64,000 nt of DNA, taken from contig NZ_CP033381.1 of assembly GCF_016865255.1 (NCBI RefSeq), positions 3,782,001 to 3,846,000 of the forward strand. The letters are read 5' to 3'. The notes under the pieces were generated by a model. The model had not been told where the DNA came from. It saw only the letters and a program-made list of their open reading frames with translations, and searched no databases. This document shows positions 38,451-43,820 of the stretch, piece by piece. Origin of the DNA: Methylomonas sp. LW13 (GTDB taxonomy: Bacteria > Pseudomonadota > Gammaproteobacteria > Methylococcales > Methylomonadaceae). Made by a program: the position numbers and the translations under genes. The first letter of the stretch is position 1. Each line of letters opens with the position of its first letter.

Positions 38451-38540
38451 ATGAAAACATCGATAATTGCAGTCGTCAATTTCAATGTCCGTATTCTCAA
38501 AACCAGCCAAGCGTGGCAAGCTGGCAAATATGATCTTTAA
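38451..38540 (+). CDS. Short upstream ORF, possible leader peptide or frameshift remnant
   Basis: 29 codons with a strong AGGAAG ribosome site just before the ATG. It ends at TAA 38538-38540, overlapping the ATG (38530) of the large downstream gene in another frame. That downstream ATG has no ribosome site of its own, so either translation is coupled through this ORF or an ancient indel has split off the original start. Confidence 0.45.
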   Translation: MKTSIIAVVNFNVRILKTSQAWQAGKYDL

Positions 38541-40401
38541 GGTCATAGTTTTCTGCTTGGCTGTATTGCCGATACAGGTATTTGCTTGCAGTTGTTGGGA
38601 TCCAGAGCCGGAAGAGTATCTTCAAGCCAGCACATTGATTTTCAAAGGTATTGTTGAATCGGTTGAAAAAATTGTGCCGACATCCGTAGCGGACAAATAT
38701 AGCATTGCCACAATACCCGATGAACTCGCATCAAGCCGCGCTAAATTTAAACTGACAACCTCCTATAAAGGACCGGAATCCAAAGAGATCGATATCGAAT
38801 TTCATAACAATAGCGCGAGTTGCGGATGGGATTTTTCTGTTGGCAAGGAGGTAACCGTGTTTGCTGACGGCAATGCTCGGAATGGTTTCAAAACTAGCAT
38901 GTGCATGATGTTCCCTTATGTATATTCTATTGAGCACGGCGATAATCGATATCAAAAAGCCATTGATGCTTACCGAAAAAAACGGAATTCCTTATTCTCC
39001 CTGTTACGAAACACACGTAAAAACCAAGTGTTATTACGAGAACCAGCCACCTTTTTCGTTCGAAATCAGGACTATGCTGCGGCAGAACTGGCGTTTAACC
39101 AAATACTTAAACTACGACTCAAAGACCTATCAGCCTTGGTAGGCCGGGCCGACGCCCGATACAAACAAGGCGCCTATGAACTTGCTTTGGCAGACTATCA
39201 GGCTATCCAAAAACTGGATATACAGAATAGTACTGCTCGACATGGAAAAACTTTTGCTTTGTTAAAACTTGGAAGAATTCAAGAACTTGGGGACGACAGA
39301 GACTTTAGCGGTTACGAAAATGATTTGGATCATTCGTCTTTCGCCGGCCTGAATTTGGCTGGTGCCAATTTCCGGGGCGCCAAACTTAGCAATACGGATT
39401 TCTCCGGAGCCGATTTGAGTAATGCCGATTTCTCTGAATCCGATATACATAGCTCTAATTTCAAGGGAGCGAAACTCAGTCATGCGAAATTTCGTAATCT
39501 AAAAAGCGCATCCGAAACACAATTCAATCACGCTGATCTTCGACACGCCGACTTTGGTGACACCGTTTTGTTTGCCACAAACTTCGACAACGCGATACTC
39601 GATGATGCCGATTTTTCTAGAGCCGACATGAGGCTCGCTTCCTTTGAGGGAGCTTCGATCAACAACACTAAATTGCACGGCAAACGTATGGTTTCAGCCA
39701 ATCTACGCGGTTTGAAATTCGTTGATCAGGATTTATCTGGCGCGGACTTTCGAGGTGCCGATTTACGCGGCACGATCTTTCAATCCACGAATCTTAAGGG
39801 AGCTATTTTTGGCGTAGCAGAAGGGAAAATTACTAATCTACAAGACTCTGACTTGTCCAAGGCCAATCTCACCGATGTTGATTGGGGTCCCGTTATTGTC
39901 GACTGCCATACTAAGTTGCCGTATAACTTGGATATAGCAAAATTACTGGTCTTTCGTATATGGACTGGTTGCAAGGAAAATCCCCCGCGAACCGCTCCAC
40001 CAACTACGTATCGCTTTCCATGGGGAATAGTACTGCAAGGTATAGATGCTTCGAATTCCTACTATGTTGACGGAGACTTGTCGAGATTTAGATTTCAGCA
40101 CTCCAATTTCGACAACAGCGATTTTTCGCATGCCACGCTGATCGGTTTGGATATTCAAGGCGGAAGCTATCAAAAAGCTAACTTCGAATACGCCAATCTC
40201 ACCAATGCTCATTTTACGGCAGTAAGCTTTAGCGAAGCTTCGTTTGCCCACGCCAATTTATCCAACGTCAAGTTAAGAGATGTGAATTTTTCCACAGCGA
40301 ATCTGGAGGATGCGCAGCTTACAGGCCTGTGTTTCGACGTTAAGAGTAAATGGCCGGAAGGATTCGATCCGCTTGCCGCTGGCGCTAAGTTGTGCGAATA
40401 A
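38530..40401 (+). CDS. Secreted NTR-like/TPR/pentapeptide-repeat protein
   Basis: 623 residues from the ATG at 38530, which begins a signal peptide (MIFKVIVFCLAVLPIQVFA); in-frame starts at 38467 (TTG) and 38485 (ATG) would place it inside. The mature end CSCWDPEPEEYLQASTLIFK resembles the N-terminus of netrin/TIMP-like (NTR) domains, with further Cys at about 100 and 125. A TPR-like pair follows (about 190-265), then long pentapeptide-repeat runs of the A(D/N)LxX type (about 275-455 and 500-605) broken by a Cys-containing insert. The gene is visibly richer in A and T than its neighbours, a hint of horizontal transfer. Function unknown; pentapeptide helices usually bind proteins or DNA. Confidence 0.85.
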   Translation: MIFKVIVFCLAVLPIQVFACSCWDPEPEEYLQASTLIFKGIVESVEKIVPTSVADKYSIATIPDELASSRAKFKLTTSYKGPESKEIDIEFHNNSASCGWDFSVGKEVTVFADGNARNGFKTSMCMMFPYVYSIEHGDNRYQKAIDAYRKKRNSLFSLLRNTRKNQVLLREPATFFVRNQDYAAAELAFNQILKLRLKDLSALVGRADARYKQGAYELALADYQAIQKLDIQNSTARHGKTFALLKLGRIQELGDDRDFSGYENDLDHSSFAGLNLAGANFRGAKLSNTDFSGADLSNADFSESDIHSSNFKGAKLSHAKFRNLKSASETQFNHADLRHADFGDTVLFATNFDNAILDDADFSRADMRLASFEGASINNTKLHGKRMVSANLRGLKFVDQDLSGADFRGADLRGTIFQSTNLKGAIFGVAEGKITNLQDSDLSKANLTDVDWGPVIVDCHTKLPYNLDIAKLLVFRIWTGCKENPPRTAPPTTYRFPWGIVLQGIDASNSYYVDGDLSRFRFQHSNFDNSDFSHATLIGLDIQGGSYQKANFEYANLTNAHFTAVSFSEASFAHANLSNVKLRDVNFSTANLEDAQLTGLCFDVKSKWPEGFDPLAAGAKLCE

Positions 40402-40518: not shown

Positions 40519-40868
40519 GTGCGCGAAGTGTTCCCTAACAATTTAGCTTCTATTTGTCACGCAACCACTATCGCCAACCAGCCCTAAACATCACTTGTTT
40601 CCAGTCAGCAACAATCAAGTTTTTAACGTATATTTTCCGCATATTTGCAAAACCGGCGATCACTATCGATGGAAGACAATTACGCGATTTCCAGCCCAAA
40701 ACACATGATCAATTACCTAACGGGAATCCCGCGGCGTCATTGCATTTTGTCCGCTCGCTATGCGGTTAATGATCAAGCGGTTTTAACCGTAATGTTACAA
40801 ATTGACCTTAAGCAGAATGCTTTGGCGATAGACGCTCGAAAAATTAATAACACGATGGTTTGCGAGCT
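40519..40868. repeat. Duplicated copy A of the ycgR promoter and 5' region
   Basis: 40519-40560 matches 42112-42154, and 35 bases around TTTTAACGTATATTTTCCGC (40620-40655) are identical to 42258-42292. Similarity continues into the coding part to about 40850. The two copies flank the protoglobin/roadblock genes. Confidence 0.85.
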
Positions 40869-40890
40869 AATTCTCATAAGCCACAAATAA
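40669..40890 (+). pseudogene. Truncated ycgR copy (N-terminal YcgR domain only)
   Basis: 73 codons. Residues 1-55 (MEDNYAISSPKHMINYL..., HCILSARYAVND) align with residues 1-58 of the full YcgR-like protein encoded at 42307, mostly by conservative changes. Then the sequence diverges (DARKINNTMVC...) and stops before the PilZ domain. Its upstream region is also duplicated, so it is a decayed partial duplicate that may still be transcribed. Whether it makes a short stable protein cannot be told. Confidence 0.8.
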
Positions 40891-41028: not shown

Positions 41029-41592
41029 ATGTCATTGGATTTCGAAAAGCTGACCGTATACGGCAAATCGTTTAGCGGGTTTACCCCCGATAAGGAAGCT
41101 TTGTTGTTAGAGGTTGGGTCGCAAATTAAGCCGTATCTGGCGGCGGTAACCGACGAATTTTATCAACAGTTGAGCACCATACCGGAAACGGCTTCGTTTC
41201 TGGAAGGCCGAGTCGAGGGTTTGAAAAATACCCACCGCCTATGGATGGAAGGGCTATTCACAGGCCCCTATGATAAAGACTTTACCGCACAGATGTTCAA
41301 GGTCGGTGATGTGCATGTCAAGGTTAAGTTGCCTGTCGAATTCATGGCCGGAGCGATGACTTTGATCAATAACCGTCTTTTCACACTGATAGTTGAAACC
41401 TTTGGTGACGATAAGCAATATTGCGCTCGGACGATTGCCGCGGTTAACTCGGTAACCGGCTTTTCATTGCTGGTGATGCAGCAATCCTATCAAGCCTCGA
41501 GCCTGGCGGAAGAACTGGAAAAGTTTTTGAAAATTTCCGGCATGAGCCGCACGTTATTCACCAATCTGGCCTTGGCCTACAGAGACAAATAA
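41029..41592 (+). CDS. Protoglobin-like heme-sensor protein
   Basis: 187 residues; GAGGAGA ribosome site. This is the globin domain found in globin-coupled sensors and protoglobins: FTPDKEALLLEVGSQIKPYL (pre-A/A/B helices), then GDVHVKVKLP with the proximal heme ligand H96, then helices G-H (TLINNRLFTLIVE, YQASSLAEELEKFL). It has no output domain, so it should bind O2, NO or CO and pass the signal to a partner. The best partner candidate is the roadblock protein encoded 10 bases downstream; the YcgR and LuxR-type genes further on suggest motility or gene control as the output. Confidence 0.88.
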   Translation: MSLDFEKLTVYGKSFSGFTPDKEALLLEVGSQIKPYLAAVTDEFYQQLSTIPETASFLEGRVEGLKNTHRLWMEGLFTGPYDKDFTAQMFKVGDVHVKVKLPVEFMAGAMTLINNRLFTLIVETFGDDKQYCARTIAAVNSVTGFSLLVMQQSYQASSLAEELEKFLKISGMSRTLFTNLALAYRDK

Positions 41593-41602
41593 GGAGATCA
41601 CT

Positions 41603-41965
41603 ATGCGCGCGGATTTATTAATATCTGTTTTGACGGAATTGAATGGTTCGTCGGCCGACATCGAAGCCAGTGGCGTGATATCGACTGATGGTTTAATGAT
41701 GGCCTCGGTATTACCGGCTTCCATGGACGAAGACCGGGTAGGCGCGATGAGCGCCGCCATGTTGTCATTGGGTGACCGGACTGCGCAAGAGCTGGCGAGA
41801 GGCGAGTTGGAGCAAGTGCTGATCAAAGGCAAGGCCGGCTATGTGTTAATGACCTATGCCGGTTCTGAGGGTGTTCTCACCGTTTTAACCAAGTCATCGG
41901 CCAAATTGGGCTTGATATTTCTTGATGTTAAGCGAGCGGCGGTTCAGATCGCGGAGATGCTGTAA
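41603..41965 (+). CDS. Roadblock/LC7-domain protein
   Basis: 120 residues, the whole protein being one roadblock/LC7 domain (ELNGSSADIEASGVISTDGLMMAS, a beta-meander, then LVKGK-type YVLMTYAGSEGVLTVLTKSSAKLGLIFLD in two pieces and a final helix). AAGGAGA precedes the ATG. Bacterial roadblock proteins often regulate small GTPases such as MglA or act as dimeric adaptors; no GTPase is nearby. It starts 10 bases after the protoglobin gene and is clearly co-transcribed with it. Confidence 0.9.
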   Translation: MRADLLISVLTELNGSSADIEASGVISTDGLMMASVLPASMDEDRVGAMSAAMLSLGDRTAQELARGELEQVLIKGKAGYVLMTYAGSEGVLTVLTKSSAKLGLIFLDVKRAAVQIAEML

Positions 41966-41978
41966 AGATTGAATTGGA

Positions 41979-42000
41979 GTGACGGGATTACGCCCGTCAC
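41979..42000. other. Stem-loop after the roadblock gene, and 306 further bases without a gene
   Basis: GTGACGGG-ATTACG-CCCGTCAC is a perfect 8-bp stem, 14 bases after the roadblock stop. It lacks a T-run, so it may be a weak terminator or mRNA end. The rest of 41966-42306 holds the duplicated ycgR upstream copy B (42112-42292) and an anonymous 64-codon leftward frame with no recognisable similarity. Confidence 0.5.
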
Positions 42001-42111
42001 CTCGATCTTACCACCGGTCAGACTGTTTTCCGCATCAGGCGGTCGATCCCCGCCTTCAAATACCTTTACCGCTCCCAGGGGGATGTCAATACCAAAGCTA
42101 GACAGATCAAG

Positions 42112-42305
42112 GTGCGCGCTATGCTTCCCTGACAACTTAGCCTGAATTTGTCACATCGGCACTCGCTCGTTGCTCCAGTGTCGCACCCACTAGACCTAAA
42201 CGTCCCCGCCCTAAAAAGCTTAAGCCCCTACTTATTTCCAACAAGGCAACAATCCGGTTTTTAACGTATATTTTCCGCATATTTGCAAAACCGATGATCA
42301 CTAGC
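42112..42305. repeat. Duplicated copy B of the ycgR upstream region
   Basis: Partner of 40519-40668. The identical block at 42258-42292 lies 14 to 48 bases before the ycgR start codon and probably contains the promoter, which would explain why it stayed conserved in both copies. Confidence 0.85.
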
Positions 42306-42306
42306 A

Positions 42307-43056
42307 ATGGAAAACGACTACGCGATTTTTAGCCCGAAACAGATTGTCAATTATTTAACGGAGATCCAGCAGCGTAATTGCATTTTGTCGGCTCGCTATG
42401 GCGCGGATAATCAGGCGTTTTTAACTGCGATTGTGCAAATCGACCCTAAACACAATACCTTGGCGATAGACATTGCGCCCACCCAGGAATTGACAGACCG
42501 TTTGTTACTGAGCAAGCGCGCGCATTTCTTCACACAGGTGGATGGGATTGATGCGGCTTTTCAAGGGGTGAACATCAAACTGGCGCAAAGCACGCATGGT
42601 GCGGTACTGACCATGCCCTTGCCCGATAGACTGTACTGGCGGCAACGGCGTAATTATTACCGGGTGAAAGTGCCGCAGTCGCATGCCGGCACGTATTGCC
42701 AATTCGGTTTTAAGCTAAGCGGTGCGGATGGCGAACAAATATCTGTCGTTAAAACCTTCAAACTGATCGATATTGGCTTGTGCGGACTGGCTTTATTGAA
42801 TCCGGACCATGATTTGCAACAGGAATTGCTTAGTGTTGAAGTCGTCAGTTGCACCTTATTTCTGCAAGACCACGAACACCACCACGCCGACGTTGCGATG
42901 CGCGCCAAATACAGTATCGACGTCAAAACCAATACGATAAGCACTGCGCATCGCATAGGTTTTCAATTTACCGCCATTTCGCCGGCTTTTGAGAGTAGTG
43001 TGCAGATCTACATGCAATCTATCGAACGGATGCTGAAAAACATCGAGAGTCATTGA
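42307..43056 (+). CDS. ycgR: YcgR-like flagellar brake protein
   Basis: 249 residues: an N-terminal YcgR domain (about 5-115) and a C-terminal PilZ domain (about 120-240). The cyclic-di-GMP contacts are RRNYYR (RxxxR motif, about 118-123) and DIGLCG (about 155-160), the latter in place of D/NxSxxG, with Gly replacing the Ser. YcgR slows the flagellar motor when it binds cyclic di-GMP. With two giant GGDEF-EAL proteins in the same window, it is a plausible receiver. No flagellar gene is nearby. Confidence 0.88.
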   Translation: MENDYAIFSPKQIVNYLTEIQQRNCILSARYGADNQAFLTAIVQIDPKHNTLAIDIAPTQELTDRLLLSKRAHFFTQVDGIDAAFQGVNIKLAQSTHGAVLTMPLPDRLYWRQRRNYYRVKVPQSHAGTYCQFGFKLSGADGEQISVVKTFKLIDIGLCGLALLNPDHDLQQELLSVEVVSCTLFLQDHEHHHADVAMRAKYSIDVKTNTISTAHRIGFQFTAISPAFESSVQIYMQSIERMLKNIESH

Positions 43057-43187
43057 ATCGGCGCTAACTCGCGCTGTTTCCGTTAATCTCCAAGTTTAGC
43101 TGGGCTCAAACTAAAAACGGCAATACCTTATTTACCAAAAGGTCCTAGGTTTGCCATTCCACCCGTTTAGACAATAGGCAATATATC

Positions 43188-43820
43188 GTGTCAGTCATCA
43201 GGTTATTGCTACCCGCGCAAGGGTTTGCAGAAATTAGCCTTAATCCGAAAGAATTGGAAAACCAAGGCATTGCCGTCATCACAATCGAGCCAAACACTAC
43301 GGAACCGATGAATTTGTTGGCTTTAGACGTCGTCCTGATCGATGGTGACGCGGCGTTGCTAGACAATCTGGATCTGATCGATCAAATAAAAGGCATTACA
43401 CCCACCTGTAAGTTTGTAGCCTTGCTTAGCCATTCCAGCGCCCATGCCCTGACGTATTTGCAGGTCGGAGTGACCGGGTTGCTGAGATGGTTTCCCGACG
43501 CGGCCAAGTTGGCTGAGATCATCCGCACGATTGTGCAGGGTGAATATTACCTGGACCAAGAGATTGCCCAATTGCTGGCCATGCGGCAAATCAAACAACA
43601 GTTAGAACCCTTTGTTTCTCTGAGCTCCCGCGAGTTTGATGTGTTTTGCCTATTAGCCGAAGGTTGTTCGTTGCAAACGGTAGCCGCGCAACTCGGTATC
43701 AGCAGTAAAACGGTCTCCAATTGCCAAACTCAAATCAAGCTGAAACTGGTTATCGACAGTCGGGACACACTGACAAAATTTGCCAATAGCCATGGCTTGA
43801 TTATGCATAAAGGCGTATGA
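43188..43820 (+). CDS. LuxR/NarL-type response regulator
   Basis: 210 residues from a GTG at 43188. The N-terminal receiver is degenerate (DVVLIDGDAALLD holds the candidate Asp, but the usual acidic pair at the start is missing), and the C-terminal LuxR helix-turn-helix is clear (LSSREFDVFCLLAEGCSLQTVAAQLGISSKTVSN in two parts, about 140-172). The lack of acidic pocket residues suggests phosphorylation-independent action. It follows the YcgR gene by 131 bases and ends at a good terminator. Confidence 0.85.
   Translation: MSVIRLLLPAQGFAEISLNPKELENQGIAVITIEPNTTEPMNLLALDVVLIDGDAALLDNLDLIDQIKGITPTCKFVALLSHSSAHALTYLQVGVTGLLRWFPDAAKLAEIIRTIVQGEYYLDQEIAQLLAMRQIKQQLEPFVSLSSREFDVFCLLAEGCSLQTVAAQLGISSKTVSNCQTQIKLKLVIDSRDTLTKFANSHGLIMHKGV

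Follow-up and report, generated by a model that had tools for sequence, protein, structure and literature searches.

A link between a haem globin and a Roadblock/LC7 protein was published in 2015 for HGbRL of Methylacidiphilum infernorum, in which the two are fused, a relay from haem to roadblock was proposed, and the genome also encodes an MglA-like GTPase (Teh et al. 2015, PMC4476040). The fusion is stated in that account to be unique to Methylacidiphilum, and its globin is assigned there to the group of HMP and VsHb (PMC4476040). Here we describe a related arrangement in Methylomonas sp. LW13, whose assembly is a single 5.23-Mb contig: in the 64,000-nucleotide stretch that was analysed (the window), a gene for a single-domain protoglobin is followed after 10 bases by a gene for an MglB-like roadblock protein. 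Like HGbRL, this pair brings together a globin and a Roadblock/LC7 protein in a methanotroph; unlike HGbRL, the globin is a separate gene of the S family, and the arrangement recurs in many genera and also inside a GTPase operon. The relay put forward by the HGbRL authors means that globin-roadblock signalling had been proposed before. The preliminary description of this DNA had called the combination unusual and possibly new, which has to be narrowed: the fused form has been in print since 2015 (PMC4476040), while no record of a separate protoglobin-roadblock pair, or of Group 3 MglA operons that include a globin, was found in the open-access literature searched, where HGbRL is the only globin-roadblock link.

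For many Ras-like GTPase systems of bacteria it is not known what signal they receive. The main text of the 2014 account that defines Group 3 of MglA (Wuichet and Sogaard-Andersen, PMC4316618) mentions neither a globin nor a PAS protein and does not appear to name a sensor for this group. Those systems, from beta- and gammaproteobacteria, are described as having an MglA with DAR in its G5 motif and often no Lys in G4, traits shared with the actinobacterial conservons of Group 2, together with one or two MglBs and a protein that joins a receiver-like N-terminus to a winged-helix-like C-terminus through a variable linker; a transcriptional output was suggested for them (PMC4316618). In the conservons (CvnA-D) a roadblock protein, a Ras-like GTPase and a sensory component, there a histidine kinase, share an operon (PMC4316618). 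The Group 3 mgl locus of Snodgrassella communis has an orphan mglB-3 far from the operon; orphan MglB may lack GTPase-activating protein (GAP) activity, and colonies of the orphan-mglB mutant are edged with flares on soft agar, ascribed to type IV pilus-dependent motility (PMC11112851).

Conservation of the globin-roadblock pair

Loci (L numbers) and genomes (G numbers) were drawn from several sources, among them a named-genome collection with 26 loci carrying relatives of the window globin, 36 Methylomonas genomes, a 301-genome sample of the order and a class sample of 369 genomes. Strong globins were defined as matches above 170 bits, which in the order sample gave 48 copies in 38 genomes of 18 genera. 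The globin of G235, which contains a stop and scores 80 and 55 bits, was excluded from this set; its genome carries the GTPase discussed below.

The pair occurs in two forms, inside a GTPase operon and as a dispersed two-gene cassette. A roadblock gene adjoins the globin in 18 of the 26 named-genome loci, the eight unpaired ones being L039, whose contig starts within the globin, L040, L051 and L053-L057. Within the order sample, 30 of 43 copies that possess a C-terminal tail have a roadblock gene within 700 bases, the distance adopted for this count (22 downstream, 8 upstream), as against none of the five tailless copies. The 43 include two partial globins, one cut by a contig start (G029) and one in two pieces (G247). 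Roadblock positions were taken from a roadblock alignment profile, A3, in 30 genomes and from PF03259 in 8, and the roadblock linked to the globin in G104 and G120 is a divergent one. Since both gene orders are seen, adjacency appears to be favoured and to reflect more than one inherited event, and the recurrence of the pair and its order in many genera argues that the pairing in the four-gene stretch of the window is not due to chance. The preliminary description had named a lack of conserved pairing in other genomes among the results that would refute it, and such pairing was found; globin and roadblock form a real, conserved unit, with which a gas- or redox-sensing role would fit. In all the linked loci that were inspected the two have a gene each and are not fused in one chain; an apparent 969-aa "fusion" in L031 proved to be a different frame that runs into the globin start and lacks a roadblock.

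Seven of the 36 Methylomonas genomes carry the globin, and exactly these seven reach E <= 1e-13 with two roadblocks each, a coincidence with a chance of 1.2e-7 if kinship is ignored and with a cut that was chosen after the list had been viewed (the second match of G016 has 1.3e-14). In G029 the globin and the second roadblock lie on different contigs. For the trees, duplicate records were entered once (e.g., L024/L033 and L028/L038), and the divergent globins L127, L129 and L019 were aligned but kept outside. In the globin tree and the roadblock tree alike, the dispersed pairs from Methylomonas, Methylobacter and G057 (10 rows) come together in a single clade, with support of 92/94 for the globin and 85/72 for the roadblock, both under the program's starred level; the roadblock of the GTPase operon of strain LW13 (L089) falls outside. 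The same pair stands beside differing genes in at least L026, L028, L034-L037, L046 and L048, and this clade together with the changing neighbours indicates inheritance of the pair as a cassette. The close relatives are Methylomonas, among them the Methylomonas fluvii record L033 (the same record as L024), with a globin 97% identical to that of the window. Viral contigs gave no match, and plasmids only one distant globin-coupled sensor.

Two further globin loci are of separate interest. In G145 (L133, 7248-8444) two globins, one tailed and one tailless, stand in tandem with no roadblock nearby. In G029 (L029, 1-8473) the globin at the contig start is followed by genes on the opposite strand, which we take from their sequences to encode MSHA/type IV pilus assembly proteins.

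Association with a probable Group 3 MglA-type GTPase operon

A search for roadblocks in 20 globin-bearing genomes returned at least one in each. Among 19 stretches around further roadblocks from 13 of these genomes, 12 (in 12 genomes) hold one and the same conserved operon, whose members are listed in Table 1, and the remaining seven hold other roadblock genes. The operon GTPase of L101 and L107 was placed by a genome-wide GTPase search, and neither PAS nor PhnD genes were seen in L095, L096, L121, L122, L123, L125 and L127. Strain LW13 has its own copy of the operon at C1:3039195-3044019, about 0.78 Mb from the pair; its genes are spaced by -4 to 41 bases, and a globin is absent. Its PAS protein is closest to the PAS domain of the aerotaxis receptor (8dik, E 2.1e-37) and may be called Aer-type.

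The GTPase profile matched Ras/Rab proteins best (3.8e-7) and MglA 3t12 at 2.3e-5, and in all ten rows the G5 motif reads DAR and G4 lacks Lys. The opB proteins have conserved N- and C-terminal parts with a variable linker between them. An opB model (mean predicted local distance difference test, pLDDT, 80.6; predicted template modelling score, pTM, 0.54) had receiver domains as its best hits at a modest E (4.8e-3; template modelling score, TM, by target 0.61), with no winged helix among the best 50 structural matches listed. By its receiver-like N-terminus, conserved ends and variable linker, opB may correspond to the Group 3 partner protein. These features suggest that the operon is a Group 3 MglA-type system. 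It resembles the published Group 3 systems in its MglA-type GTPase, in the G4 and G5 motifs, in the variable-linker partner, in having one or two MglBs and in its proteobacterial distribution, and it differs from the main text of the 2014 account in that globins and PAS proteins are recurrent here (PMC4316618). A roadblock gene far from the operon recalls mglB-3 of S. communis (PMC11112851), a system for which a globin does not appear to be mentioned. The joint presence of roadblock, Ras-like GTPase and sensory component recalls the conservons, in which the sensor is, however, a histidine kinase (PMC4316618); no kinase domain was matched in the seven proteins of the L103 operon.

Thiodiazotropha and Methylobacter, and members of several further families of the class, encode globin and roadblock inside the GTPase operon. 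The globin lies between opD and the roadblock in L050, L052 and L058 (Thiodiazotropha and a Stewartia symbiont), overlapping opD in L050 (7989-7996), and likewise in L120, L121, L122 and L130 (the GTPase of L130 was placed separately), and just after the roadblock in L041, L042, L044, L045, L047 and L049 (Methylobacter and relatives). Divergent globins take the position after the roadblock in L129 and in L127, where the GTPase was placed by a separate search, and that of L019 (Protoglobin 1.6e-17) follows a roadblock outside the operon. The 18 linked named loci divide into nine with the pair inside the operon and nine without any operon family in the flanks that were fetched. No match to opA, opB, the GTPase, opD or PhnD was obtained in the flanks of the window pair, of L024-L028 and of the nine dispersed loci, and the one PAS match of the window lies 9 kb from the pair.

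At the level of gene content, the globin is associated with the GTPase system. With presence defined as E <= 1e-8, the GTPase occurs in 38 of 38 strong-globin genomes of the order sample vs 100 of 263 others (Fisher 5.5e-15, with genomes treated as independent although they are related). Two of the 38, G297 and G312, are fragmented assemblies with lower-scoring GTPase matches only, so that 36 of 38 genomes pass the 270 bits above which a GTPase was entered in the adjacency count. As a control, genomes with weaker globin matches only, most of which fall within long frames as globin-coupled sensors would, carry the GTPase in 21 of 39 cases. Another 22 globin-bearing genomes, several of them Methylococcales reached through loci, include 20 with the GTPase (of the 22, G493 and G626 carry more distant globins only). 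Of the 369 genomes of the class sample, 11 reached E <= 1e-15, that of strain LW13 included.

Two kinds of genes were seen close to the operon. Just upstream of the globin-bearing operon of three Methylobacter loci (L041 3669-4109, L042 3683-4096, L044 3677-4138) lies a gene which we take, by its motif, to be haemerythrin-like and thus another possible O2-binding partner. Next to or near the operon of Thiothrix and Leucothrix relatives is a gene (L095 2046-3686, L096 4525-6177, L091 4889-6073, L098 9678-10913, L100 10026-11099) for a protein of presumably LysM/FimV-like appearance, the L095 one being without a Pfam match; such a protein could tie the switch to the pole or to pili.

Table 1. 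Features of the window around the globin-roadblock pair and members of the GTPase operon
Feature	Coordinates	Strand	Length	Remarks
Protoglobin, single-domain, S-family sensor-type	41029..41592	+	187 aa	ATG; Pfam PF11563 E 4.1e-22, 79.3 bits (cut-off 25)
Globin C-terminal tail, residues 157-187, candidate output/docking element	41497..41589	+		H-helix extension, break near GMS, terminal helix
Roadblock/LC7 (MglB-like)	41603..41965	+	120 aa	ATG; Robl_LC7 PF03259 E 1.9e-16, 60 bits (cut-off 23)
Hairpin after roadblock stop, possible end of two-gene transcript (weak)	41979..42000	+		Fold z -1.93
YcgR-like PilZN protein, neighbour judged outside the system	42307..43056	+	249 aa	PilZN E 5.6e-21
LuxR-type (GerE) regulator, neighbour judged outside the system	43188..43820	+	210 aa	GTG start; GerE E 7e-11
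Degenerate ycgR copy (upstream region and 5' end), 81%	40608..40833	+		Direct repeat D1; second copy 42246-42471
opA (operon member)			~240 aa	Function unassigned
opB (operon member)			~400 aa	Receiver-like
Ras-like GTPase (operon member)			~179 aa	MglA-type
opD (operon member)			~215 aa	Robl_LC7 match weak, E 0.0042, below cut-off
Roadblock (operon member)			120 aa	Followed in the list, in many operons, by a PAS protein and a PhnD-like protein

The globin and its C-terminal tail

The nearest solved relatives of the window globin are 2w31, the globin of GsGCS (8.1e-16), and 5ohe, that of AfGcHK (1.7e-12), both sensor globins. Among 46 aligned globins, Y45 and H96, which we take to be B10 and F8, are present in 46/46 each and H69 in 44/46; the two exceptions to H69, L129 and L019, both retain F8. 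H69 aligns with residue 66 of 2w31, and this residue of GsGCS is His66(E11), which coordinates haem (PMC4476040). The globins share the fold of GsGCS and AfGcHK, and His E11 is common with GsGCS; those two are domains of larger sensors, whereas the present globin ends with a 30-residue tail. The window globin is probably a haem-binding protein, with His E11 (H69) and His F8 (H96) as predicted axial ligands.

The Pfam Protoglobin match stops at residue 155, before the tail. In the tail G171 and L176 are each conserved in 44/46 sequences, and neither is retained in the two tailless copies aligned. The L050 homologue as modelled, with a TM by target length of 0.90 to 2w31 and 0.91 to 5ohe, has helices H130-171 and H175-195, so that the tail is predicted to extend helix H and, past a break, to form the last helix. 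Every roadblock-linked globin aligned has some form of tail. The preliminary description had referred to a globin with no output domain; this is accurate in so far as no other Pfam domain exceeds its cut-off (KdgT is listed below its own), and incomplete in that some 30 conserved residues follow the Pfam domain.

The roadblock protein and its paralogues

Judged by sequence, the window roadblock is an orphan paralogue of the GTPase-operon roadblock, as 103 of 120 residues are identical to the operon copy at 3.04 Mb of the same genome. In the tree it groups with other globin-linked roadblocks and not with this operon copy. The modelled L050 homologue matches 9jue, 7f8m and MglB (3t1s). A third, distant roadblock (23/119 identical), with a roadblock-like neighbour, is encoded in the C1:3626487 region of strain LW13 (L090 7428-8305), and a low-scoring match resembling it is present in 23 of the 36 Methylomonas genomes.

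Proposed mechanism and alternative explanations

It appears rather probable that a Ras-like GTPase switch receives its input through globin and roadblock, with the haem globin modulating the roadblock in response to O2, NO or redox state. The globin would bind haem through His E11 and His F8 and change its shape with O2, NO, CO or redox conditions, and this change would pass through the C-terminal tail to the roadblock dimer. As the properties of the family suggest, the roadblock, alone or with the operon roadblocks, would then act on the GTPase, whose nucleotide state it would tune, and on its receiver-like partner. In Methylomonas, where the operon was without a globin wherever inspected, the two-gene cassette would act in trans. 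By analogy with known systems, the likeliest outputs would be polarity, type IV pilus function or transcription. The globin of HGbRL, which we take to be of the M family, and the S-family protoglobins described here would represent different globin classes converging on roadblock proteins, and this convergence is the strongest argument for a functional link. For a wider proposal the balance is about even: single-domain haem globins from several diverged S-family lineages may have become the sensory subunits of roadblock/Ras-like GTPase switches in Gammaproteobacteria, with the conserved tail as coupling element and often next to an Aer-type PAS protein, the pair also spreading as a cassette that connects to the GTPase system already present in the host. 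If the haem globin is indeed the sensor of the switch, a dissolved gas would be linked directly to a G-protein switch, both in methanotrophs and in symbionts that oxidise sulfur, organisms that live on O2 gradients, and unattached protoglobins would gain a testable partner.

Several observations weigh against a globin-driven GTPase switch. The GTPase-bearing genomes without this globin (100 of 138) make it an optional input. The GTPase is also slightly more frequent in genomes with only weaker globin matches than in those with no match (21/39 vs 79/224, p 0.022), and the co-occurrence counts ignore kinship. Two loci, L123 (G631, an assembly that is 79% complete) and L125 (G416), keep opA, opB, opD, globin and roadblock but lack the GTPase, and no match to it at E <= 1e-8 was obtained elsewhere in their genomes; the GTPase is therefore not indispensable, and the globin may act first on the roadblock/opB part. 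The globin is unlinked in 13 of the 43 tailed copies, in L040 and in six Thiothrix/Leucothrix/Thiotrichaceae loci (L051, L053-L057), and globins stand alone in the class genomes G618 and G619 (L124, L126, L128). A modelled read-through fusion of the L050 globin and roadblock had well-formed domains and a pTM of 0.60, which gives no defined orientation of globin and roadblock to each other.

Some of these facts would also agree with a globin that acts on another operon protein (opD, the receiver-like opB, the PAS protein or the GTPase), the roadblock being only an operon neighbour. This is how the Thiothrix and Leucothrix genomes, in which the globin is unlinked while the operon is present, might be understood, as well as the overlap of globin and opD in L050 and the two genomes that lack the GTPase, G416 and G631, which retain opB and opD along with the globin. 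It is nevertheless rather unlikely, because the dispersed cassette consists of globin and roadblock alone, its flanks (the window, L024-L028 and nine loci) being free of matches to opA, opB, the GTPase, opD and PhnD, and because the pair stays together in several unrelated settings. Alternatively, the globin could be a catalyst or buffer that is merely co-expressed and serves NO or peroxynitrite detoxification or O2 handling. Nitrite reductase and peroxynitrite isomerisation activities have been reported for archaeal protoglobin (PMC4020757), and haemerythrin-like genes stand beside the operon in the three Methylobacter loci mentioned above. The regulatory protein that adjoins the globin on one side or the other, in operon and cassette alike, the conserved tail past the haem domain, and the sensor globins as the two best solved relatives make such a role unlikely and favour a sensory one.

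Two further explanations are much less probable. The preliminary description had combined the pair with the YcgR and LuxR genes downstream into a four-gene module for the control of motility or transcription. The four genes are indeed colinear in the window and in two close relatives, but among 36 sequences compared (the window and 35 loci, L024-L058) YcgR and LuxR adjoin the pair only in these three, the window, L024 and L025. A gap of 341 bases separates roadblock and ycgR, a transposase-like gene, presumably IS110-like by its motif, occupies this gap in L024, and a broken ycgR lies on the other side of the pair; a four-gene module is accordingly very improbable, and its YcgR and LuxR part had to be abandoned. 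Equally improbable is that the pair is a mobile cassette of little function in its present host, as might be gathered from settings that differ between genomes, a patchy presence in the genus (7/36), the G247 copy in two pieces and the G235 copy with a stop. None of the 48 copies above 170 bits contains an inner stop, and the haem residues and the roadblock core are nearly invariant, which speaks against this reading.

Neighbouring genes and local rearrangement

The four open reading frames of the preliminary description were confirmed by their coordinates and Pfam matches, as was the 10-base spacing of globin and roadblock. An AAGGAG motif upstream of the roadblock overlaps the globin stop. 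The hairpin behind the roadblock has no T run and was not picked by the terminator scan, and the promoter and terminator scan of the region performed no better than on shuffled sequences.

The "cyclic-di-GMP brake" of the preliminary description keeps its PilZN match, while the assignment to PilZ and YcgR proper is weaker than that name suggests: PilZ reaches 15.4 bits (Pfam cut-off 22.5) and the NCBIfam YcgR model 60 bits (cut-off 400), and the D/NxSxxG motif that we would presume for such proteins reads DIGLCG. The YcgR of the window is no evidence for motility. A remnant PilZN reading frame (40669-40890, E 4.5e-6) has counterparts in L024 and L025. With the degenerate ycgR copy upstream of the globin, the pair has a broken ycgR on one side and the intact gene on the other, and this degenerate copy is, on sequence grounds, a trace of rearrangement around the pair and not a part of the system. 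Directly upstream of this region, at 38467-40401, lies a gene for a 644-aa pentapeptide-repeat protein with weak TPR matches. The G+C content is about 47% across 38-44 kb vs 49-59% in the remaining 2-kb steps of the window.

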